NCBI RefSeq assembly: GCF_019931275.1
Contig: NZ_JAIOTY010000001.1
Location: 930,001-994,000, forward strand
Length of the DNA stretch: 64,000 bases
Reading direction: 5' to 3'
Source of the DNA: Nitratidesulfovibrio sp. SRB-5
GTDB taxonomy: Bacteria; Desulfobacterota; Desulfovibrionia; Desulfovibrionales; Desulfovibrionaceae
In this document: positions 23,249-64,000 of the stretch, one piece after another
Numbering within the stretch: position 1 is the first letter of the stretch
Layout: each line of letters starts with the position of its first letter
Program-made: the position numbers and the translations under genes
Notes under the pieces: model-generated
Told to the model about the DNA's origin: nothing
Database searches by the model: none
Seen by the model: only the letters and a program-made list of their open reading frames with translations

Positions 23249-23324
23249 TGGCTCCCCGGGACGGACTTGAACCGCCAACCTAGTGATTAACAGTCACCCG
23301 CTCTGCCGATTGAGCCACCGGGGA
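23249..23324 (-). tRNA. tRNA-Asn (GTT), copy 1
   Basis: A 76-nt cloverleaf on the minus strand with encoded CCA. The acceptor TCCCCGG pairs with CCGGGGA, the D-stem is GCTC/GAGC, the anticodon stem GGTGA/TCACT encloses CTGTTAA (anticodon GTT), and the T-arm is GGCGG-TTCAAGT-CCGTC. It differs from copy 2 at one D-loop base (C here, T there). Confidence 0.97.
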
Positions 23325-30624: not shown

Positions 30625-30700
30625 TGGCTCCCCGGGACGGACTTGAACCGCCAACCTAGTGATTAACAGTCACCCGCTCTGCCAATTGAGCCACCGGGGA
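30625..30700 (-). tRNA. tRNA-Asn (GTT), copy 2
   Basis: A 76-nt cloverleaf with encoded CCA and anticodon GTT. It is identical to copy 1 except for one D-loop base. The surrounding 120 bp, including the terminator, is also duplicated at 23211-23331. Confidence 0.97.
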
Positions 30701-53518: not shown

Positions 53519-54652
53519 GTGGATGATCCCGTGTCCGATATCTTTTCGGGGGGTGCTGTGTCGCAGGCGATGGGATTGGAAACGCAGGGCGGTTGCGCCC
53601 GCGATGTGCAGGAGATAGCCGAGGAGGCCGTGGCGCGGCGGTTCCGGCTTTCCGGTACGGCGCACCCGCTGTTGGTGCTGCTGCGGCGCAGGGCGGTGGA
53701 GGCGCTGGCCCGGACACTGTGCGCCGGTGCTTCGTGCGAATTGCCCGCCCCGCGCATGCCCCTGCCGCCAGAGGTGATCCACGAGGCCCACAGCGGCCTG
53801 GCCCCCGGCGACCTGGACGGGTTGGCCGAGCGCGCCCGCCTGCCCGCCCTGCCGCAGGTGTTTCTGGAATTGCAGCACGCCATGGAGCGCGAGGAACCCT
53901 CGTACGAGGAACTTGCGGCCATCATTTCCAAGGATCCGCGTCTGGCCGCCTCGCTGCTGCGGCTGGTCAACGGGCCGCTGTTCGGCTTTCGGGCACCGGT
54001 GGAAACGGTGAGCCGGGCGGTGGCGGCGGCGGGCACCCGCCGGGTGACCTCGCTGGCCCTGGGTACCTTTGTGCTGGGGCTGTTTCGCGAGCGCCCTCCC
54101 CACGTGGTCAACCTGCACGATTTCTGGCTGCATTCGGTGGCCACCGCGCTCATGGCGCGGGCTCTGGCCACCCGCATGGGCCGCGACGATCCGGAACGCT
54201 ATTTCGTGGCGGGGCTGCTGCACGACATCGGCTGGCTGGCCATTTGCGCCGTGTGGCCCGCCGGGGCGGAACGGGTGCTGGACCGTTGCCGCGATCAGGG
54301 GGAAAGCCTGACCGTGGCGGAGCGGGCGGAACTGGGCATGACCCACGGCGAAATGGGCGCGGCGCTGCTGCGGCGCTGGAATCTGCCGCCCGTGCTGGTG
54401 AATGCGGTGCAGGCACATCATGATCCGTCCACGTTCCCGGCCAGTGACGAGGCCCTGCTGGTGCACCTGGCCGACGAGGCGGTGAAGGCCTTCGGCATTG
54501 GCGGCACCGGCGACGATTGCGTGCAGCCGCTGGATGCGGATGCCCTGGCCGCGCTGCCCATTTCGGCGCACGATCTGGACGCCGCCTGCGAGGTGCTGCT
54601 GGAAGGTGTGGACGAGATGTACGCCGTGCTGGGGGCCGGAGTCAGGAGCTGA
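53519..54652 (+). CDS. HDOD domain protein
   Basis: Protein of 377 residues carrying an HDOD signalling domain (about 95-300): ALPQVFLELQHAMEREEPSYEELAAIISKDP, LLRLVNGPLFGF, then FVAGLLHDIGWLAI with an HD pair typical of the degenerate phosphohydrolase fold. HDOD proteins act in regulation of chemotaxis, motility or stress, often without catalysis. The first 90 residues match no domain I know. The start is a GTG at 53519 with AAAGG upstream. It stands alone. Confidence 0.85.
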   Translation: MDDPVSDIFSGGAVSQAMGLETQGGCARDVQEIAEEAVARRFRLSGTAHPLLVLLRRRAVEALARTLCAGASCELPAPRMPLPPEVIHEAHSGLAPGDLDGLAERARLPALPQVFLELQHAMEREEPSYEELAAIISKDPRLAASLLRLVNGPLFGFRAPVETVSRAVAAAGTRRVTSLALGTFVLGLFRERPPHVVNLHDFWLHSVATALMARALATRMGRDDPERYFVAGLLHDIGWLAICAVWPAGAERVLDRCRDQGESLTVAERAELGMTHGEMGAALLRRWNLPPVLVNAVQAHHDPSTFPASDEALLVHLADEAVKAFGIGGTGDDCVQPLDADALAALPISAHDLDAACEVLLEGVDEMYAVLGAGVRS

Positions 54653-54797
54653 CCCGGCGCGGGGGTACATGCCCTCTGCGCGACAGGCACGGCACACGAT
54701 GAGCCGTCCGGTGCGCTGTCCGGTTCACTGCTTGGGGCGTGTCTGCCGGGATGCCCGCCTGTCCGTTTTTCGATGCCCGCCGATGTCCATCGGTGCC

Positions 54798-54833
54798 TGA
54801 TCCGCCCACTCCCGCACGGGGATGGGCGGATCA
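54798..54833. terminator. Hairpin overlapping the CotH-like stop codon
   Basis: Perfect 11-bp inverted repeat tgatccgccca/tgggcggatca with a 14-base loop, between the convergent HDOD and CotH-like genes. It lacks a T-run, so termination strength is uncertain. Confidence 0.4.
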
Positions 54834-56510
54834 GCCGTTTGCGCAGACGGCGCGGATGTGCAGGGGGGAGTGCACGCTTACGTCCAGTTGGCCCGCCTCG
54901 CGGGGGACACCGTCCACCTCCCAGTGCAGTAGTCTGGCACAGCCTTCCGCAGGCGGAGCCACGGTAATCCGCTGCCCCTCGAAGTAGCGCCCGGTGTAGT
55001 CGGTGTAGTCGGATTCACCGTCGATGCGCACCGGTCCGGGGGCGTTTACCCGCACCGTATGCCAGCGGGGCGCCTTCAGGTCGCGCACGGTTTCTTCCAG
55101 CACCTCGTCGGCCCGGTTGGCCAGCAGGCGGCGGGCCAGGTCAAGGTCGAACATGGTGTTCCCCGCCTGGCGGTCCAGGGCTTCGTACCGGGCGAACAGT
55201 CGCTCGCGGGCCGCTTCGTTCAGGGTGTGGTTCAGCGCGTGGGTGACGAAATGCAGGAAAAAGTCGCGGAATTCCGGCGATTCTTCCCACAGCCGCAGGA
55301 ACAGGCGCATGCGCACGGCCTTTTTTTCGTCCATGGCGTATTTCCAGCCGGGGCGCTGGTCCAGCGGCCCGCCGGGAACAAGACGCTGGAAGGCCTCGTC
55401 CAGATCCCAGGCGATGTTGATCCAGCGCGGCTTGGGCTGGTTCTTGTCCAGCAGGAAGGCCCCCTGGTCCCAGTCGTTTTCGCCCATGTACACCGCGCCA
55501 AAGATGACGGCGCACATGCTGCGCATGTCCATACGGCGCTCGGCCTGCTGCATGGTCAGGGGGGCGGGCATCAGGCGGATCCACAGGTACAGTTCGCGCA
55601 GAGCGGCGAATTCCGCCCGGTCGTTGCCCTTGCGGATGGAGTAGAGCAGGAAGTTGTCGTGCCCCAGCCTGCGCTTCCAGTGGGCGTCGGCAATGTGCTC
55701 GCTGACCAGCGAAAGGCCCATGTCCTTGCCGTTCATCGAAAAGACGGCAGGCATGAACCGGGGTGTTTCCGCGCCCAGCATGCCCATGATGTCCAGCCCC
55801 AGCATGTTGATGAAGCCGGGGCTGGTGGTCTTTTCCTTGCGCAGCACCAGCCGTTTCAGCGAGCCTTCGGCATCGGGAAAGAACAGGTCGGCGGGCTGTG
55901 CGGAGGCGCCGTACGAACTACGGAAATAGAGGCGGTAGCCGATGCCGAGATGGCGCGAACCACCGCCGTGCAGGCGCAGACCCACGCCCGAGGCCATTTG
56001 TTCCTTGCCGTCGCGGTAGTAGACCACTGCTGCGGGATGTTCCCATTCCCGGCCGCGTTCCTTGGAATTGGCGACAATGCCCGATTGCGGGGCGCTCAGG
56101 TTGGCTTCATCGGTGCGCACGGCGAACACAGGCCAGCCGCTGGCCACCATGGCCGGGTCTGCGTCGCGGCGGGCCTGTTCCAGCAATGCCGAGGTGTGGG
56201 CCGTGTTTTCCGGGGCCATCGCGTGCACATCGGGCAGGCCCAGTTCCGTCAACAGGTGCCGCTTGCGGGGAGAGCCCAGCGAATCCTTGCCGGTGGCGAT
56301 GTGCAGCGACACGGCGCGGTACTGCCGGATGAAGGCCGAACGCTCCAGCAGCAGCCCGGCGCACAGCAGGGCGGCAACGAACAGCGCCGCCGCCCACAGC
56401 GGGATGCGGGGAGCGCCGGGGCCGTGGGGCACGCGGGGTGGGCCGGATGGCGGCGCCGTGCCGTCTCCCTGCGGCGGGCTATTGGGCCGCGTGGTCGAAA
56501 TAGACATTGA
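54831..56510 (-). CDS. CotH kinase-like protein, membrane-anchored
   Basis: Protein of 559 residues. A proline-rich cytoplasmic N-terminus is followed by one signal-anchor helix (IPLWAAALFVAALLCAGLLL, about 38-57). The extracytoplasmic part has the CotH atypical-kinase landmarks: GVGLRLHGGGSR, RLVLRKEKTTSPGF with a candidate ATP-binding Lys, and the metal-binding WINIAWDLDEAFQ, followed by a helical lobe. A C-terminal beta domain (about 475-559) has VAPPAEGCARLLHWEVDG. The ATG at 56510 overlaps the DUF4956 gene by 32 bp, so the two are coupled. CotH homologues phosphorylate or glutamylate surface proteins; the substrate here is unknown. Confidence 0.85.
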   Translation of the reverse strand, partial: SMSISTTRPNSPPQGDGTAPPSGPPRVPHGPGAPRIPLWAAALFVAALLCAGLLLERSAFIRQYRAVSLHIATGKDSLGSPRKRHLLTELGLPDVHAMAPENTAHTSALLEQARRDADPAMVASGWPVFAVRTDEANLSAPQSGIVANSKERGREWEHPAAVVYYRDGKEQMASGVGLRLHGGGSRHLGIGYRLYFRSSYGASAQPADLFFPDAEGSLKRLVLRKEKTTSPGFINMLGLDIMGMLGAETPRFMPAVFSMNGKDMGLSLVSEHIADAHWKRRLGHDNFLLYSIRKGNDRAEFAALRELYLWIRLMPAPLTMQQAERRMDMRSMCAVIFGAVYMGENDWDQGAFLLDKNQPKPRWINIAWDLDEAFQRLVPGGPLDQRPGWKYAMDEKKAVRMRLFLRLWEESPEFRDFFLHFVTHALNHTLNEAARERLFARYEALDRQAGNTMFDLDLARRLLANRADEVLEETVRDLKAPRWHTVRVNAPGPVRIDGESDYTDYTGRYFEGQRITVAPPAEGCARLLHWEVDGVPREAGQLDVSVHSPLHIRAVCANG

Positions 56511-57201
56511 TTTCCGCGCTGGGGGCAACGCCGCTGGCCAGTGTGGTCAGGCGTTGCACCAGGGGCTCGTCGGAACGGGCGAAGGTGGCGATGATGGTGC
56601 GCCGTTCGCCGTCACCTGAAATGCTGGCCACGGTCAGTTCCGGCAGGCTGTCGCGCAGGGCGGGCAGCAGGGCCGCATCGGCCTCGCGCTCGGTGGACGG
56701 GTAGGCGATGACCGCCGTGCCGCTGCGCCGCGCCACGCGGCCCCGCCGAAAGCGGTGCGCCACCGCCAGCCCTGCCGTGATCACGCCCAGGAACAGCGCC
56801 AGGATGACGATGTTCAGGGTGGCGCAGCAGATGGCCGTGGCGATGTTGACCATGATGAAGCCCACCTCTTCCGGCTCCTTGATGGGGGTACGGAAGCGGA
56901 TGATGGACAGGGCGCCCAGAAGGCCCAGGGACAGCGGCAGCGAGAACTGCACGCAGATGAAGATGGCGGTGATGGACGGCCCCAGCAGCAGGAAGCTGCG
57001 GTGCACCAGGCTGCCCGTGCCCCGGCTTTCGTAGAATCGCGAATACAGCAGCGCGGTGTACTGAGAGGTGAGCAGGGAGATGAGCAGGGCCAGCAGGAAG
57101 GTGCCCGCGCCGATGTCCGCAGCCTGCTTGGAGCCGAAGCCGGTGACGGATACCAGCGCCTGGTAGGCGCCGCCAAGAACTTCGAAGAGTGATTCAACCA
57201 T
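56479..57201 (-). CDS. DUF4956 membrane protein
   Basis: Protein of 240 residues. The N-terminal 140 residues have four hydrophobic segments and the DUF4956 signature LLGALSIIRFRTPIKEPEEVGFIM. A soluble C-terminal domain (about 150-240) has a ferredoxin-like feel (LPELTVASISGDGERRTIIATF). No biochemical function is established for the family. It lies between a VTC-domain gene and a CotH gene, an association also seen in other bacteria and suggestive of one system. Overlap with the CotH start indicates co-translation. Confidence 0.88.
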   Translation of the reverse strand: MVESLFEVLGGAYQALVSVTGFGSKQAADIGAGTFLLALLISLLTSQYTALLYSRFYESRGTGSLVHRSFLLLGPSITAIFICVQFSLPLSLGLLGALSIIRFRTPIKEPEEVGFIMVNIATAICCATLNIVILALFLGVITAGLAVAHRFRRGRVARRSGTAVIAYPSTEREADAALLPALRDSLPELTVASISGDGERRTIIATFARSDEPLVQRLTTLASGVAPSAEINVYFDHAAQ

Positions 57202-57383
57202 GTGGGTGAGCCTTGTCCGTGTAGTGTCCGGGAACGTATGGTCCGGGTATGTGGTTGCCGTTGTGGTGGTGTCTGGCGGCAGCGTGTCCGGTAATGGGCT
57301 GCCCGGTGCGCGGTGGCGGGTGGAAGGGCAGCTGCGACATCAGGGCTGCCGGAACACCACGCCGGATGGCCGGAAGCGCGACA

Positions 57384-58115
57384 TCAGGCGTGGTCGCGGG
57401 GCGGCGCGGCAGGCGCGAAACAGGTGTAGCCGCCGGGTATGCCCGTGGAACAGAACAGCATGTCATGGCATGCGAGGTACTTGGAAAACGTTTCCCGCCG
57501 GAAGTGGAAGGTGCTTACGGCATGCAGCGAGCGCGGCATTTCGCGCAGGCTGCCCTTTACCTCCAGCACGGCCACGGGCAGGGGCGTGGGGTTGTGCCGG
57601 GCGATGAAGGCAGGGTTGGCGCGGGGCACGTGAATGCCCGTGTCCACGGCGATGCGTGCCCCGGTTGCCGGATCGATGAAACGGTGGCGGGTGTAGCGCA
57701 GGATGAACATGGGAAAGATGGGCCGGGGAAAGGGGATGCCCGCTTCGGCCAGGTGTTCCGGCAGGCGGCACAGCAAGGGATCGGTCAGCGGGGTGTTCCA
57801 CAGGGTGGCCCCGTCCAGGGGCAGCAGCACGCGGGCCTTGTCGCGCGCGGCGCCTTCCTTGCGCTTGGCCTCCAGGAACACCGCCCGCTCCATGGTCGTG
57901 CCCCGCACGGCGCCGTACCAGCGGCAGCGTATCTTGGTCTTCAGGTAGTCGCTGTTGCGCTTTTCTTCCAGCAGATCGCGCGCGGGCGTGTCGTAGTAGA
58001 GCGAAAAGACGTCCGCCGCAGGAAACGCGGGGTCGGGGCGGCATGCCGCGCCCAAAAGGTCCACGACCGCACGGGCGAAGGCCGGGGCGAAGGTGTATTT
58101 TATCTCGTTGCTCAC
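57384..58115 (-). CDS. VTC-domain protein (polyphosphate polymerase-type tunnel fold)
   Basis: Protein of about 243 residues with the triphosphate-tunnel motifs of the VTC catalytic domain: NEIKYTF at the N-terminus, FSLYYDTP, KTKIRCRWYG (basic Lys/Arg substrate contacts), FLEAKRKEG, and late VLEVKGS supplying the metal-binding Glu. Eukaryotic Vtc4 makes polyphosphate from ATP with this fold. The GTG at 58115 places EIKY at the usual distance from the start but lacks a good ribosome site; the frame stays open to a GTG at 58229. It precedes DUF4956 and CotH-like genes on the same strand. Confidence 0.85.
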   Translation of the reverse strand: MSNEIKYTFAPAFARAVVDLLGAACRPDPAFPAADVFSLYYDTPARDLLEEKRNSDYLKTKIRCRWYGAVRGTTMERAVFLEAKRKEGAARDKARVLLPLDGATLWNTPLTDPLLCRLPEHLAEAGIPFPRPIFPMFILRYTRHRFIDPATGARIAVDTGIHVPRANPAFIARHNPTPLPVAVLEVKGSLREMPRSLHAVSTFHFRRETFSKYLACHDMLFCSTGIPGGYTCFAPAAPPRDHA

Positions 58116-58342
58116 GATGGGAACCGCCGAGGATGCGAGAGGAAGTGGTTCTGGAGCGTGCTGTCGTGCCCGCGTGAAGGGGCGCGGCAGGCAGACCGAA
58201 AGGTTGCGCGGCTCCGGATGGTGACGCACCCGTGTTACGGGATATCGTGCGGAAAGTCCATTTCGATGCGCGGCGGGGCCGTGCGCGGTGCCCCATGCGC
58301 CGGGGAAAGCCGCAACGCAGGGTGCGTGCGCCGGGAGCGAAG

Positions 58343-59596
58343 CTATTGCGCCTCTTGCATCCCATCGGGCAGCGTTGTGGACAGTGCAGCGATCTGTCGC
58401 ACCAGCTGCTCGTTGTCGCCGTGGCGACGAACCTGCATCCTTATGTAGCCGCTGGGCATGCCGGGTATGTTGTCGCAGGATCGCACCAGCATGCCGTGGT
58501 GCAGGAGTTCGCGGCGCACCATGTCCGCCGTGACGCCGATCCGCAGCAGTTCTTCGGACAGGCGGCAGGTAGTGAAGCTGGGGCCCGCGTTGCAGGCGTG
58601 GGGATCGAACACGCCCAACCTGCGCAGTCCGTCAAGCAGCACGGCACGGTCGGCACGCAGGGCGGCAAGGTGCGCCCGGTAGTCGGGCAGGGCGTGCAGA
58701 AAGCGCCTGCCCATGGCCTCTGCAAAAGGGGATACCATCCACGGCGGGCGCCGGGACTGCAAGAGGTCCAGCAGTCTTTCGGGGCCGGTCAGGTAGCCCA
58801 GGCGTATCCCCGTGCAGTGGAAAAACTTGGTGAAGCTGTGCAGGCACAGCAGCGTGCCGCCAGTGGGGCTGGGCGGACGGGCCGGGGCGAGGGCCGCGTG
58901 GCGGTGGGCATCATGTTCCGGGGAGCCCCACAGGAAGTCGCGGTAGGTCAGGTCGGCCAGCACGGTGCGAAAGCCCGACCGGAACAGGGCGGCCACCAGG
59001 GCGGGCAGGTCGGGCGCGGTCACCGGGCAGGGGTTGCCCGGCGAGCAGAGGACCACCAGTTCGTCTTCCGCATCGGCCTCGGTGCCCGCCCGGAAGTCCG
59101 GCGGGGGGGCGTCCAGCGCGCGCATGGGATCGGCATGCAACACCCGCCAAGGTATGGCGTGGGCCTCGCAGGCGCGGGCGTATTCGGAAAAGGTGGGGCC
59201 CAGCAGGGTGACCCGGCGGGGTTGCAGCACGCGCAGGATCAACCAGATGAGTTCCGACGAGCCGTTGCCCACCATGATGTTGTCTGGGGCAAGTTCCTCG
59301 TGGGCGGCCAGTTCCTCGCGCAGGGCAGTGCTGGCACTGTCCGGATAGTGCTCGAAGGGGTGGGGCTGCGCCTCGACCAGGGCATGGGTCAATCCCCGCG
59401 CATGGGCGAAACCGTTGCTGCTGCAATCCAGGATGTGTTCCGGCTCCACGCCCAGTTCACGGGCCACACGGTAGATTTCGCCGCCGTGCGCGCCCTGAGG
59501 CGGTGTGGAATCCGGTGCGGAGTCAGGCGCGGAACCGCGGGGGGCGGCGGGCCGCGACGCGGGCGCGGCATGTGGGGGCGGCCCGGCATCAGGCAT
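58343..59596 (-). CDS. CobD/HisC-like PLP-dependent aminotransferase
   Basis: Fold-type I enzyme of 417 residues. After a low-complexity 30 residues, HGGEIYRVARELGVEPEHILDCSSN is the CobD (threonine-phosphate decarboxylase)-type opening. MVGNGSSELIWLILRVLQP contacts PLP phosphate, LCSPGNPCPVTA follows, and the Schiff-base Lys is in LHSFTKFFHCTGIRLGYL. HisC-type activity cannot be excluded. It overlaps the upstream glycosyltransferase by 8 bp and belongs to a surface-glycan gene run, not a cobalamin one. It might make an amino-alcohol phosphate or amino-sugar precursor for glycan decoration; this is inference. Confidence 0.85.
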   Translation of the reverse strand: MPDAGPPPHAAPASRPAAPRGSAPDSAPDSTPPQGAHGGEIYRVARELGVEPEHILDCSSNGFAHARGLTHALVEAQPHPFEHYPDSASTALREELAAHEELAPDNIMVGNGSSELIWLILRVLQPRRVTLLGPTFSEYARACEAHAIPWRVLHADPMRALDAPPPDFRAGTEADAEDELVVLCSPGNPCPVTAPDLPALVAALFRSGFRTVLADLTYRDFLWGSPEHDAHRHAALAPARPPSPTGGTLLCLHSFTKFFHCTGIRLGYLTGPERLLDLLQSRRPPWMVSPFAEAMGRRFLHALPDYRAHLAALRADRAVLLDGLRRLGVFDPHACNAGPSFTTCRLSEELLRIGVTADMVRRELLHHGMLVRSCDNIPGMPSGYIRMQVRRHGDNEQLVRQIAALSTTLPDGMQEAQ

Positions 59597-60737
59597 CGGA
59601 CAGTCCTCGGCGTTGCAGCAGGGTGCGGTACAATGCCTCGAAGCGGTTGATGCGCGTCTCGGTGGAGAAGTCCGGCGCGATGGCGCGGCTGGCCTCGGCC
59701 CAGGTGACGCGCAGGCTGGCATCGCCCATGGCCGTGGCCAGGGCGCGTGTCAGCGCGGGCACGTCGCCGGGCGGCACCAGCAGGCCGTTGCCCCGCACCA
59801 GTTCGGGCACGCCGCCCACCTGCGAGGCAATGACCGGCAGGCCGGAGCAGATGGCTTCCAGCAGGGTGTTGGGCATGGATTCGGACAGCGAGGGCAGCAC
59901 GAAGGCATCGAGCAGTTGCAGGTAGTCGGCCACGCAGTTGCTGTGTTCCACCAGCCGGACGCGGTCCGTGATGCCCAGTTCCGCGCACAGCGGCTGCCAC
60001 CGGCCAGGCGTGACGCCCACCACGACCAGATGCGGGTTGCCGCTGGCGGGGGCGCTGTCCTTGTGACCGCTGGCCGGGACGCTGTCTGGGCCGTCGGATG
60101 GGGCGCCATGCCGGGCGCAGGCCAGCGCAAAGGCCCGCAGCAGGGGTGCAACGCCCTTCACGTCGCCGTCGTGGGCAACGCAGCCGAACAGAAGGGCACC
60201 GGCGGGCAGCCCCAGTTCCGCGCGCATGGCGTCCGCCCCGCGACGCGGAACGAGCCGCGCGGCGGGAATGCCGTTGTGGATCACCGCAAGGCGCCGCTCG
60301 CCCAGGCCCATGCCGCGCAACACCTTGGCGCAGGCGTGCGAATTGGCCACGAAGGCGTCAATCCCCGGAGACCAGTAGGTCAGCGGGTTGCCGGGGCGGA
60401 AGACCACCCCCCGGTAGCCCACGCAGACGACGCCGCGCCGCCGCCAGAACAGCCCGTGCCAGGCCAGACGCTTGACGGCCTTGTTGTGGAAGGCCTGCAC
60501 GATGCAGGGGCCCTGTCCCGGCGCGGGCATGGCCGCCTCGAGCGCGCCCTTCCACTTGCCGGGCGATTCGGGCAGGTCGGCCCAGGACATGGTGTCCGAC
60601 AGGGGGCGCAGGGTGGATGAGCGCGGGGTGAAGAACGTGACGTGGTGGCCATGCTCGTGCAGGCCGTCGGCAAGGTACAGCGCCTGGCGGGCGCCGCCGC
60701 TGCTTGTGGTGGCCGAGGTCAGGAAGAGTATGCGCAT
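59589..60737 (-). CDS. Glycosyltransferase family 4 protein
   Basis: GT-B fold glycosyltransferase of 382 residues. The N-terminal domain starts MRILFLTSATTSSGGARQALYLADGLHEHGH. The C-terminal Rossmann lobe has LFGCVAHDGDVKG, RVRLVEHSN, and the donor-nucleotide EX7E region in LPSLSESMPNTLLEAICSGLPVIAS. An insertion of about 25 low-complexity residues (GPDSVPASGHKDSAPASG) interrupts the lobe. Likely cytoplasmic and involved in LPS or another surface glycan. The ATG at 60737 lacks a strong ribosome site. It is coupled to the CobD-like gene. Confidence 0.88.
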   Translation of the reverse strand: MRILFLTSATTSSGGARQALYLADGLHEHGHHVTFFTPRSSTLRPLSDTMSWADLPESPGKWKGALEAAMPAPGQGPCIVQAFHNKAVKRLAWHGLFWRRRGVVCVGYRGVVFRPGNPLTYWSPGIDAFVANSHACAKVLRGMGLGERRLAVIHNGIPAARLVPRRGADAMRAELGLPAGALLFGCVAHDGDVKGVAPLLRAFALACARHGAPSDGPDSVPASGHKDSAPASGNPHLVVVGVTPGRWQPLCAELGITDRVRLVEHSNCVADYLQLLDAFVLPSLSESMPNTLLEAICSGLPVIASQVGGVPELVRGNGLLVPPGDVPALTRALATAMGDASLRVTWAEASRAIAPDFSTETRINRFEALYRTLLQRRGLSDA

Positions 60738-60840
60738 GTGCTTTGGGGCGAAAGATGACGGTGGAAGGTGCACGCCGTACGACGGGCATCCGCCAGTGGC
60801 TGGTAGGCACGATCACGCGCGGGGGCCGCGTCGGTCGGCA

Positions 60841-61923
60841 TCAGGATTGCCGGTGGATGGTGCCGCACGCGGTCTTCTGCGTCAACGTGGCCAGCCATGT
60901 TTCCAGTTCTCGGGCCTTGCCGTCCAGTTCGCAGTGGGTGGCGCAGGCCTGGCGGGCGGCGCGCTTCATTTCCAGCAGTTCCTCATCCGGCAGGGTCAGC
61001 GCCTTGCGCAGCATTTCCGCGAATTCCGCGGGTCCGGCGGCATAGGGCAGCAGCCAGGGCAGCAGTTCCGGGGTGTACACCTCGCGCACGCCACCCACGT
61101 CGCGGGCCACGGGCAGCAGCCCCTGAGCCAGCGCCTCTTGCAGGGTGTTGGGCAGGCCCTCGCTCAGCGAGGCCAGCAGGAACACGTCGGCGCGTTCCAG
61201 CAGTTCCGGCACCCGGGTGGTGAAGCCGTGCCAGCGGATGCGCTCGGCAATGCCCAGCGAAACGGCAAGATCCTTCAGGAAGGTTTCGTGCGAGCCGGTG
61301 CCCGCCACGTCCAGTTCGAAGGGAATGTCCAGACTGGCCAGGGCGCGCAGCAGCGTCTCGTGCCCCTTGTCGGGGTTCAGTTGCTGCGTGGCCACCAGCC
61401 GCCGGGGCGTGGACACGGACAGCGGCCCGGTGGCCACCCGCTTGGCCGTGAGCACCACGTGCAGGTCCTCTGCCCGCAGGTACGGCAGGCTGGTCAGGAA
61501 TCCGTCGGCTATGTACCGGCACGAGCACAGGAACCTGGGGGCGATCCAGGCATGCAGCAGGCGGGTCTTGAGGCGGTGGGGGATGTCGCCGGGCAGGCCG
61601 ATCTGCTGGACCACGGGAATGCCCAGCAGGCGCGCGGCAACCCCGGCGGTGGCAAGATCCTTGCCGATGTTGAGGATCACCACGTCGGTGCGGTGCTCGC
61701 TGAACCGGCGGCGGAACCAGGCAATGGTGGCCGGATTCAGGTCGAATCCGAACGTGGCCGACTCTCCATGGCCCACACGGCGTTTGGCCTCGTCCACGAA
61801 GGCCTGCTGGCGCCCGTAGACGCGCACGTCATGCCCGTAGGCGGAAAGCCGTTCAGCGAAATCGAGTATCCAGGTCTTCACGCCGCCCCATTTGCGGGTG
61901 CTGTTGACGAAAGCGATGTTCAT
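60841..61923 (-). CDS. Glycosyltransferase family 4 protein
   Basis: GT-B enzyme of 360 residues: FVNSTRKWGGVKTWILDFAERLSAYGHDV at the N-terminus, GIPVVQQIGLPGD, RRLVATQQLNPDKGHETLLRAL and the donor-site LASLSEGLPNTLQEALAQGLLPVARDVGG with the paired Glu. The start overlaps the stop of the upstream O-antigen-ligase-type gene by four bases. The acceptor is unknown. The segment resembles enzymes that add inner- or outer-core sugars. Confidence 0.9.
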   Translation of the reverse strand: MNIAFVNSTRKWGGVKTWILDFAERLSAYGHDVRVYGRQQAFVDEAKRRVGHGESATFGFDLNPATIAWFRRRFSEHRTDVVILNIGKDLATAGVAARLLGIPVVQQIGLPGDIPHRLKTRLLHAWIAPRFLCSCRYIADGFLTSLPYLRAEDLHVVLTAKRVATGPLSVSTPRRLVATQQLNPDKGHETLLRALASLDIPFELDVAGTGSHETFLKDLAVSLGIAERIRWHGFTTRVPELLERADVFLLASLSEGLPNTLQEALAQGLLPVARDVGGVREVYTPELLPWLLPYAAGPAEFAEMLRKALTLPDEELLEMKRAARQACATHCELDGKARELETWLATLTQKTACGTIHRQS

Positions 61924-63260
61924 GGGATGTTCCGGGTTTCGCGGGATGGCGCTCCCACGGGTGAGGCAGGGGGAGTGTCTGCATTGATGATGGCGCCGAT
62001 CATCACGCCCAGATGGCCCATGGATACGGCCATCCACCACGAGCGCAGGAAGTCGTGCGCGAACAGCGCCTCCACCAGGTAGCACAGCCAGCCGGCCAGG
62101 AAGAACGCGGCCATGGTCCACATGTCGTACGGGGCGCCGGAGCGCGGGATGTTGCGGTGTATCCGCCGCAGTCCCCAGGCCAGCATGCCGAACAGGAAGA
62201 CCATGGCGATGACGAAGCCCACCACGCCGGTGTCCACCAGAAACTGGATGTATACCGAATGGGGGTGCTGGATGCTCGGCGGGTTGATGACCGGTTGCAG
62301 CCCCAGCGCCTTGAACGCCGGGCCGAACATGCCCATGCCCCACCCGGTCAGGGGGCGGGCCTGGATGACTTGCCACGCAAAGTCCCACAACTCGAGGCGC
62401 CCGTCGCGCATGGCGGTTTCCAGGGTGATGCGCTGCGGGCCGAACAGGGCGGCCAGAATGCCGATGCCCGTGGGCACCAGAAGGTATGCGGGCTTCGGGC
62501 GCGTGAACAGGTACCACAGCAGGAACAGGGCGGCGGCAACACCCAGGTAGCCGCTGCGGGCCTGGGCGAATATCCACAGGTGGATGCCCGGCGCCAGGAT
62601 CAGCGCGACCACGGCGGCCCTGCGCCATGCGGAGCGGATTTGGGGCAGCATGGTCCACAGGGCGAAGGCGGGCACCAGGATCAGCGCCATGTAGTCGCCC
62701 ACGCGGTAGGTGGTCATGGAGCCGGTGAGCCGACCATACATGATGGGTGTGCCCTTGATGAGGTCGTGCCCGGTGAGGTGCTGGTAGATGCCGTCCAGCC
62801 CCTGGAAGATGGCCGCCAGTGCGAAGGCCCGGACCAGGCGGCGCATGTCGCGCATGTCGCGCGCACACTCCATGGCCACGAAGGGCAGGGCGAAGCCCTT
62901 CCAGACGTTGGGAAGCACGTAGACCAGGCTCTGGCGCGGGTCCAGCGACAGGGCCGTCTTGACGCAGATGAGCCCGTAGAAGGCCACGAACAGCCACTTG
63001 AGCGGAAGACGGCGCAGGGTGGACTGCCGGTACCCCCAGTAATGATAGGCGAACAGGGCGATCAGGCAGAGGATGGGACCGACTTCGCGGAAGGCCTGGC
63101 CCAGCGAAAAGGTGACCACGGACAGCCAGAACAGCCAGAACAGCACCGTACGCGCCCATTCCGCCTTCTGCGGGTCCGGGGCGGCACGGAGGGTGCGCAG
63201 GGCCGTAGTCACGCGGGAGGGGGCGGTGTGGGGGCGGATGTCGGACATGTGGGGATCCAT
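61920..63260 (-). CDS. O-antigen ligase/polymerase family membrane protein
   Basis: Polytopic inner-membrane protein of 446 residues with about eleven helices. The Wzy_C/WaaL signature region is RPLTGWGMGMFGPAFKALGL followed by HPHSVYIQFLVDTGVVGFVIAM, where the conserved His of the large periplasmic loop falls. It links O-antigen or capsule chains to lipid A-core or polymerises them. The first ATG (63260) is used; a second at 63248 is possible. The neighbours are three GT4 enzymes. Confidence 0.9.
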   Translation of the reverse strand: MDPHMSDIRPHTAPSRVTTALRTLRAAPDPQKAEWARTVLFWLFWLSVVTFSLGQAFREVGPILCLIALFAYHYWGYRQSTLRRLPLKWLFVAFYGLICVKTALSLDPRQSLVYVLPNVWKGFALPFVAMECARDMRDMRRLVRAFALAAIFQGLDGIYQHLTGHDLIKGTPIMYGRLTGSMTTYRVGDYMALILVPAFALWTMLPQIRSAWRRAAVVALILAPGIHLWIFAQARSGYLGVAAALFLLWYLFTRPKPAYLLVPTGIGILAALFGPQRITLETAMRDGRLELWDFAWQVIQARPLTGWGMGMFGPAFKALGLQPVINPPSIQHPHSVYIQFLVDTGVVGFVIAMVFLFGMLAWGLRRIHRNIPRSGAPYDMWTMAAFFLAGWLCYLVEALFAHDFLRSWWMAVSMGHLGVMIGAIINADTPPASPVGAPSRETRNIP

Positions 63261-63328: not shown

Positions 63329-64000
63329 TCACCGGGCCTGCCCGCCATGGTTTTTGGCTGGCAGGCTTGCATAGAAGGCCAGCAGGCGCTCCGCGTAGCG
63401 CGGCATGGTGAGTGGTTCGATCACCCGGTGCGCGGCCTCGGAAAGCCGTGCCCGCAGCGTGCCGTCGCGCAGAATGGAAAGCAGCTTGGCCGCGATGTCG
63501 CCAGGTTCGGTTTCACACACCAGCGAGGCTTCGGCCGCCACCTCCAGCGAGGGAACATGGCGCGAGACCACGCACGGCAGGCCGCAGTACAAGGCTTCCA
63601 TCTGGGCGATGGGAAAGCCTTCGAAATCCGAGGGCATGGCGAAGATGTCCGCCGCCCGGAAAAAGGCCGCCACGTCCTGGCGGAATCCCGTCAGCACCAC
63701 GTGCCCGCCAAGGCCCAGACTGTCGCGCAACGCCTCCAGGCGGGGGCGTTCCACCCCTTCGCCCACCAGCACCAACGATGCGGGTATTTGCTGGTCGTGC
63801 AGGATGCGCACGGCCCGGATGAGCAGGTCCAGGTTCTTCTGCCGCACGTACCGGCCCACCGAAAGAATGACCGGGCCGGAGACGCCGTAGGCGGCCTTCA
63901 GGTCTAGCGGGGGCATGTCGCAACGTTTCGGGTCTATGGCGTTGTAGAAGACCTGCACCGGCCGGCCCGCCCGATTGTGGTCGGCGGCGACGACGTCGGC
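63329..64000 (-). CDS. Glycosyltransferase family 4 protein (N-terminus outside window)
   Basis: C-terminal lobe of a GT4 enzyme. The frame is open through the window edge, so the N-terminal part is missing. Visible are YNAIDPKRCD, ILSVGRYVRQKNLDLLIRAV, LVLVGEGVERPRLEAL, VVLTGFRQDVAAFFRAADIF and the donor-site MPSDFEGFPIAQMEALYCGLPCVVS with its paired Glu. It begins the minus-strand glycan run; the next gene starts 68 bp downstream. Confidence 0.9.
   Translation of the reverse strand, partial: ADVVAADHNRAGRPVQVFYNAIDPKRCDMPPLDLKAAYGVSGPVILSVGRYVRQKNLDLLIRAVRILHDQQIPASLVLVGEGVERPRLEALRDSLGLGGHVVLTGFRQDVAAFFRAADIFAMPSDFEGFPIAQMEALYCGLPCVVSRHVPSLEVAAEASLVCETEPGDIAAKLLSILRDGTLRARLSEAAHRVIEPLTMPRYAERLLAFYASLPAKNHGGQAR

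Follow-up and report, generated by a model that had tools for sequence, protein, structure and literature searches.

Three adjacent genes and the families of their products

The DNA analysed here is a 64,000-nucleotide stretch of the genome of Nitratidesulfovibrio sp. SRB-5 (contig NZ_JAIOTY010000001.1, positions 930,001 to 994,000), which we call the window and whose own numbering is used throughout. On its minus strand lie three adjacent genes, one from each of the families VTC, DUF4956 and CotH (the trio). The VTC-domain gene (57384..58115) encodes 243 amino acids (aa) from a GTG at 58115 and matches Pfam VTC (PF09359) at 2.1e-17. The DUF4956 gene (56479..57201, 240 aa) matches PF16316 at 2.9e-13, and the CotH kinase-family gene (54831..56528), which ends at 54831 and encodes 565 aa from a TTG at 56528 or 558 aa from an ATG at 56507, matches PF08757 at 4.4e-12. 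All three bit scores lie above the curated cut-offs (in brackets): 63.9 (23) for VTC, 50.3 (30.6) for DUF4956 and 46.6 (23.8) for CotH. A first, sequence-only reading of this DNA had proposed the trio at this place, and Pfam agrees on both the families and the location; the outer coordinates then given, 54831 and 58115, are correct as the CotH end and the likely VTC start, and the motifs then quoted are present in the translations. The 32-bp overlap reported for the last two genes was wrong: DUF4956 and CotH overlap by 29 bp from the conserved ATG at 56507, or by 50 bp from the longer TTG start at 56528.

The GTG at 58115 is the most likely VTC start, because conservation across the genus begins there, at VSNEIKY. 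A gap of 182 bases separates VTC from DUF4956, and an aminotransferase gene lies 227 bases upstream of VTC. No match to a sigma-70-like promoter was found in 54500-58700, and NCBIfam gave no match for the VTC, DUF4956 or CotH protein of the window. The order aminotransferase, VTC, DUF4956, CotH is conserved in five further genomes of the genus that carry DUF4956, so the arrangement is not due to chance.

The VTC protein resembles the catalytic subunit of the yeast VTC complex (Vtc1/Vtc3/Vtc4). A profile of 64 VTC relatives matched yeast Vtc4 (3g3q, 5.9e-17), together with Vtc2 and Vtc3 chains. By HMMER alignment to chain E of 8i6v, the tunnel residues R63 and R65 of the RCRWYG motif (57921..57929, minus strand, numbered from GTG 58115) correspond to Vtc4 R264 and R266, and the glutamate E185 of AVLEVKG (57561..57563, minus strand) corresponds to Vtc4 E426. 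These three residues are invariant in all 64 aligned relatives, and a passage of PMC9911596 gives their Vtc4 counterparts as the residues changed in a catalytically impaired yeast complex. By its domain, its basic tunnel residues and its glutamate, the window protein is a predicted VTC-type polyphosphate polymerase, which upholds the earlier description of it as a tunnel enzyme of that type. The catalytic tunnel domain with its identical key residues is where the likeness to yeast lies; the window VTC protein differs in having no SPX match in Pfam, and none of 83 VTC domains carried a membrane segment at the threshold used. Nor did Pfam reveal a complex of the eukaryotic type: VTC was the sole domain in the VTC protein, and the other two had neither SPX nor a Vtc1-type domain, SPX having been sought in the trio only.

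The VTC-like protein could instead be a tunnel enzyme that catalyses a different reaction, such as triphosphate hydrolysis or nucleotide synthesis, and the trio would then act on another phosphate compound. Tunnel enzymes catalyse diverse reactions, according to a passage of PMC4641920, and the literature searched contains no assay of a trio member. We nevertheless consider this improbable: the nearest non-VTC tunnel enzyme to the profile, the inorganic triphosphatase 5a60, was reached only at E 0.74, against the clear matches to Vtc4, Vtc2 and Vtc3, and the residues needed in Vtc4 are invariant.

Neither PPK1 nor PPK2 gave a match in the genome of the window (99.98% complete), so VTC is the only candidate polyphosphate synthase found in it. 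PPK1 had no match in any of eight genomes of the genus, nor PPK2 in the five of these that were searched. As a side observation, PPK1 was found in four of five searched genomes of a sister genus, compared with none of the eight of the window's genus.

The DUF4956 protein had been described as a four-helix protein without an assigned function. It now appears instead to be a distant relative of MgtC, with an ACT-like domain predicted to be cytosolic. An hhalign comparison of the DUF4956 profile with 14 MgtC proteins of the phylum gave Prob 96.4 and E 1.3e-9 over 195 columns, which span the membrane part as well as the C-terminal domain. With an E limit of 1, Pfam MgtC (PF02308) was matched by 21 of 68 DUF4956 relatives (best E 7.9e-6) but not by the window protein, and with a limit of 0.001 the window's genome contained no match to it. 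The AlphaFold2 model (pLDDT 86.1) has membrane helices followed by a ferredoxin/ACT-like domain at residues 157-240 (56482..56733, minus strand). For this domain, Foldseek placed the C-terminal domain of M. tuberculosis MgtC (2lqj) at rank 2 (E 9.3e-4) and that of P. aeruginosa MgtC (7qa5) at rank 29. The ferredoxin fold is widespread, and a fold match is weak evidence when taken alone; because the profile match joins it, DUF4956 is likely to be a distant MgtC relative, outside the membership of PF02308. What it shares with the MgtC family of Salmonella, M. tuberculosis and P. aeruginosa is the succession of membrane helices and ACT-like domain, whereas the invariant IRFRT..K motif is its own.

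This motif lies in GALSIIRFRTPIKEPE (residues 96-111; 56869..56916, minus strand), where R102, F103, R104 and K108 are invariant in 68 of 68 aligned sequences. The mean number of Lys plus Arg residues in DUF4956 is 2.2 in the stretch at about 57-66, 3.0 at 102-109 and 2.3 at 151-163. Under the positive-inside rule, these loop charges suggest that the motif and the ACT-like domain both face the cytosol. A plasmid search for DUF4956 relatives gave no match.

The CotH protein is, by its Pfam domain and its two catalytic aspartates, a predicted member of the CotH kinase family. A profile of 29 CotH relatives matched the solved CotH structure 5jd9 at 9.1e-19, and alignment to it identified the aspartates as D352 and D375 (565-aa numbering; 55404..55475, minus strand), 23 residues apart and invariant in 29 of 29 relatives. 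Their counterparts in the B. subtilis spore-coat kinase are D228 and D251, as given in a passage of PMC7821199, with identical spacing. Unlike the B. subtilis protein, the window CotH is predicted to be anchored: a single hydrophobic segment near its N-terminus (IPLWAAALFVAALLCAGLLL; 56346..56405, minus strand) has a Kyte-Doolittle value of 2.2-2.4 in seven copies from the genus. Because there is one such segment, near the start of the protein, the kinase domain is probably outside the membrane, and the membrane-anchored atypical kinase of the earlier reading remains the best description, the anchor being a prediction. A hydrophobic segment also precedes the kinase domain in 39 of 63 CotH frames, and the 30 CotH frames scanned for other domains, which were the weaker or longer ones, contained types known from surface proteins (beta-helix in 14, Laminin_G_3 in 9 and bacterial Ig-like in 8).

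Linkage of the trio across genomes

We examined linkage in the loci of the best 80 of 536 confirmed DUF4956 relatives, a set that is biased toward window-like proteins, covers many phyla and includes some incomplete genomes. VTC lay within 5 kb of DUF4956 in 74 of the 80 loci, and in 44 of the 45 with 5 kb of sequence on both sides. CotH, counted with an iterated profile started from the window protein, lay within 5 kb in 52 loci (53 if a fetched copy serves as the anchor in L035) and in 33 of the 45 with full flanks. That profile gave 56 matches in L019-L098, of which 24 had E above 1e-40 (weakest 5.6e-8); when these 24 and six more were checked with Pfam, all 30 matched CotH with an E limit of 0.01. 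At least one CotH, that of L086, escaped the profile; Pfam adds it as a further locus. Gene order varies among the loci, yet the members stay together.

The same pattern was evident when whole genomes were compared. VTC was found in 24 of the 145 genomes compared from the phylum of L040, and DUF4956 in 23, all of them among those 24, so that no genome had DUF4956 alone; in the sole VTC genome lacking DUF4956, VTC lies 217 bases from a contig end. Twenty-five of the 26 DUF4956 matches have VTC within 1 kb. CotH occurs in 30 of the 145 genomes, including 23 of the 24 with VTC, and its copy number is 88 matches in these 23 (up to 14 per genome) versus eight in the seven CotH-only genomes. VTC and DUF4956 also matched in the identical 3 of 14 control genomes; B. 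subtilis, another control, has a CotH match but neither VTC nor DUF4956. The control Corynebacterium glutamicum has matches to all three families and to PPK2, with none to PPK1. In a phylum sample DUF4956 was found in 3 of 148 genomes, the window's own among them, compared with 6 of the 8 from its genus; VTC was found in 6 of 198. Three VTC genomes without DUF4956 in the earlier search, or outside its 148-genome sample, were inspected separately. L130 has all three genes, with VTC on the strand opposite to the other two; in L129, VTC and CotH lie where the contig ends; and L128, a contig of 4.2 kb, holds two VTC matches and neither of the other genes.

Distances between the proteins also run in parallel, with matrix correlations of 0.89 for VTC-DUF4956 (76 loci), 0.71 for VTC-CotH and 0.62 for DUF4956-CotH (both 52 loci); in Mantel tests, which ignore shared ancestry, none of 2000 permutations reached the observed value. 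The core is VTC plus DUF4956, and CotH is their usual companion, often encoded at a separate site and in some genomes present in many copies. The linkage check that the sequence-only reading had suggested, run across phyla, is clear for VTC-DUF4956 and weaker for CotH, which is near in about half to two thirds of loci.

These counts bear on a second alternative, a storage or buffering module. VTC and DUF4956 would then make polyphosphate to balance phosphate, Mg2+ or ATP, and CotH, though often encoded nearby, would act separately in assembling the surface. That the window's genome gave no match to PPK1 or PPK2 fits such a role, as do the loci in which VTC-DUF4956 has no CotH nearby; passages of PMC12345266 and PMC6658541 tie phosphate and ATP balance to the MgtC family. 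The presence of CotH in 23 of 24 VTC genomes of one phylum, the overlap of its frame with DUF4956 in the window and the tracking of VTC distances by CotH distances (r 0.71) speak against a mere neighbour, and we regard this alternative as distinctly unlikely.

Several loci have other genes near the pair. After VTC-DUF4956 in Marinomonas pontica (L065:10476-12224), a Cthe_2159 carbohydrate-binding protein takes the place of CotH, so the pair may have partners of different kinds. Where CotH is missing in L056 there is a beta-helix and Laminin_G protein, L058 has a lamin-tail domain protein, and L081 has a CotH match below the cut-off. In loci of Bacteroidota type, genes for proteins of about 1000 aa with no clear Pfam match lie between DUF4956 and VTC (L075:10670-13690 and L087:10595-13615) or after DUF4956 (L085:4506-7505); the one in L075, judged by eye, may encode a divergent CotH that ends in a beta-helix.

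Within the genus, two of the six genomes with DUF4956 have one VTC gene followed by two tandem DUF4956-CotH pairs (L012:7897-12983 and L013:5384-10377). Within-genome identity is 100% and 99.2% for the DUF4956 copies and 70.8% and 63.8% for the CotH copies. Comparison of the two species gave 92.8% for the first CotH and 78.2% for the second. Near-identity of the DNA covers DUF4956 and, in L013, extends into the first part of CotH, including the hydrophobic segment. Beyond it, identity in 100-base steps drops to 54%-81% in L013 and to 47%-90% in L012. This pattern suggests that the membrane part is homogenised while the outside kinase diverges more freely.

The trio itself has been described before. 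A passage of PMC7112168 (2020) reports CotH, a poly-phosphate polymerase and DUF4956 beside pel genes in streptococci, clostridia and bifidobacteria, and passages of PMC12345266 (2025) interpret SIR_1592 of S. intermedius as MgtC joined to ACT, and describe CotH as a secreted protein. Taken together, the two sources make SIR_1592 very likely the DUF4956 homologue. In a C. perfringens cluster described in a passage of PMC2879425, VTC and CotH have a neighbour annotated as tubulin-like. Thus neither the trio nor the MgtC link is new as far as these passages go; within the literature searched, three papers name DUF4956 and none names both 'triphosphate tunnel' and 'CotH'. The pel accessory set, like SIR_1592-1594 of S. 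intermedius, shares with the window the identical three families, their adjacency and a position near surface-polysaccharide genes. It differs in its setting, since the window's genome has no PelG match and its trio lies beside a Wzy_C/glycosyltransferase cluster. PelG (PF16933), the only pel gene sought, was found in 1 of 28 searched genomes carrying such loci and gave no match in the other 27, the window's own included, which rules out that the trio is confined to pel clusters. PMC12345266 states that the three genes are not found in synteny outside pel; its passages leave the scope of that search unstated, and the loci described here extend or contradict the statement. New here are the frequency of the trio outside pel and the near-inseparability of VTC and DUF4956.

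A proposed membrane module for phosphate-chain chemistry

The module is real and widely kept, and it joins what is likely to be cytosolic phosphate-chain chemistry to a kinase outside the membrane. How might the three proteins act together? Our tentative proposal, which we hold at somewhat less than even confidence, is that they form one membrane module in which cytosolic polyphosphate synthesis is coupled via DUF4956 to an extracytoplasmic CotH kinase. The soluble VTC enzyme would convert ATP to polyphosphate, or to a similar phosphate chain, in the cytosol. DUF4956, with its invariant arginines and lysine turned toward the cytosol and its ACT-like domain, would bind the VTC enzyme or its product and would couple VTC to CotH by passing a chain or a signal across the membrane. 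The CotH kinase domain, outside, would then phosphorylate surface proteins or glycans. The families, the key catalytic residues, the predicted topology, the linkage and the lack of a PPK1 or PPK2 match are computed results, from which we infer the product, the coupling and the surface target.

It is unlikely, though worth stating, that VTC and an MgtC-type DUF4956 make and export polyphosphate, which CotH kinases, having no ATP outside, would use as a donor or attach to surface proteins or glycans. If true, such export via DUF4956 would mean that the MgtC fold can serve in transport, and it would explain how outside kinases are fed. How bacteria achieve phosphorylation beyond the membrane, where little ATP is available, is a standing question, and the molecular role of MgtC proteins is another; a trio in a genome with no PPK1 or PPK2 match makes both testable.

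A third alternative, possible but rather doubtful, is that DUF4956 is a regulator whose ACT-like domain would read the phosphate state (polyphosphate or nucleotide) and control CotH or VTC, as MgtC acts on PhoR and ATP synthase, with the CotH donor coming from elsewhere. The MgtC relation and the ACT-like fold of DUF4956 are consistent with this, as are the duplication of DUF4956-CotH as a pair without VTC and the outcome of the searches with the DUF4956 membrane part, which found no channel-like solved relative. Two published results point the same way: a passage of PMC6658541 describes MgtC as promoting phosphate uptake in Salmonella, and passages of PMC12345266 report that S. intermedius mutants in SIR_1592 and CotH aggregate by more than 50% less in one medium, a phenotype that DUF4956 and CotH share and VTC does not. 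Set against them, the tightest pairing across genomes is that of DUF4956 with VTC rather than with CotH, and an outside kinase would still require a donor.

A number of observations weigh against the coupled module proposed above. The strongest is the missing phenotype of the S. intermedius polymerase mutant: passages of PMC12345266 report aggregation and Pel for the VTC-gene deletion (SIR_1593) and name no defect, and because of this a strict chain from VTC to CotH is weakened. In the same source, deletions of SIR_1592 and CotH have opposite effects on the amount of Pel.

Structural comparison gave DUF4956 no channel-like solved relative. With its membrane part modelled alone, Foldseek returned nothing under E 0.001 (best E 2.5), and a structure search reached a best Z of 6.2 and found no solved channel that resembled it. 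DUF4956 as a Vtc1-like channel is also unsupported, since the VTC complex 9umg_D scored only Z 4.0, at rank 19 amid unrelated proteins; the bacterial membrane partner, being MgtC-like and without a meaningful match to the solved VTC membrane part, differs here from that of yeast. MgtC proteins are not known as transporters.

The genomic counts include unfavourable ones too. PPK1 was sought in 20 genomes, that of the window, which lacks it, and 19 others carrying such loci; it was present in 13, which therefore do not depend on VTC for polyphosphate. A clear hydrophobic segment was missing, at the threshold used, from 24 of 63 CotH frames. CotH was missing by profile within 5 kb in 28 of the 80 loci (27 after the L035 correction), and in the 145-genome sample Pfam CotH lay within 5 or 10 kb of just 13 of the 26 DUF4956 matches. 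Among the controls, Bacteroides ihuae has VTC and DUF4956 and no CotH by Pfam, leaving CotH in two of the three controls with the pair.

Surroundings of the trio

Upstream of the trio, also on the minus strand, is an aminotransferase class I/II gene (58343..59722) whose best NCBIfam match is CobD-like and below the cut-off, the top score being that of threonine-phosphate decarboxylase CobD (191.7 bits against a cut-off of 290.55). It is followed on the same strand by two group-1 glycosyltransferases (59589-60773 and 60841-61914), a Wzy_C O-antigen ligase protein (61920-63260) and a glycosyltransferase cut by the window's end (63329-64000). Of the five further genus loci, glycan genes follow in three (L012, L014 and L015), and in L013 and L016 the contig stops at the aminotransferase.

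The earlier reading had attached the trio to a surface-glycan operon. This context stood for the window and its genus; elsewhere, glycan genes were a minority of the flanking frames scanned. These were 114 frames of 150-700 aa, some possibly spurious, from 23 of the 80 loci, of window type and at least 15 kb, and 118 frames of 22 other loci lay outside the scan. Glycos_transf_2 was the commonest family with only 6 of the 114, so a trio always in a glycan operon is unsupported as a rule. The glycan-operon context is a trait of the window's genus.

Elsewhere in the window, two tRNA genes lie on the minus strand at 23252-23324 and 30628-30700, with an equal Rfam score of 65.9 bits.

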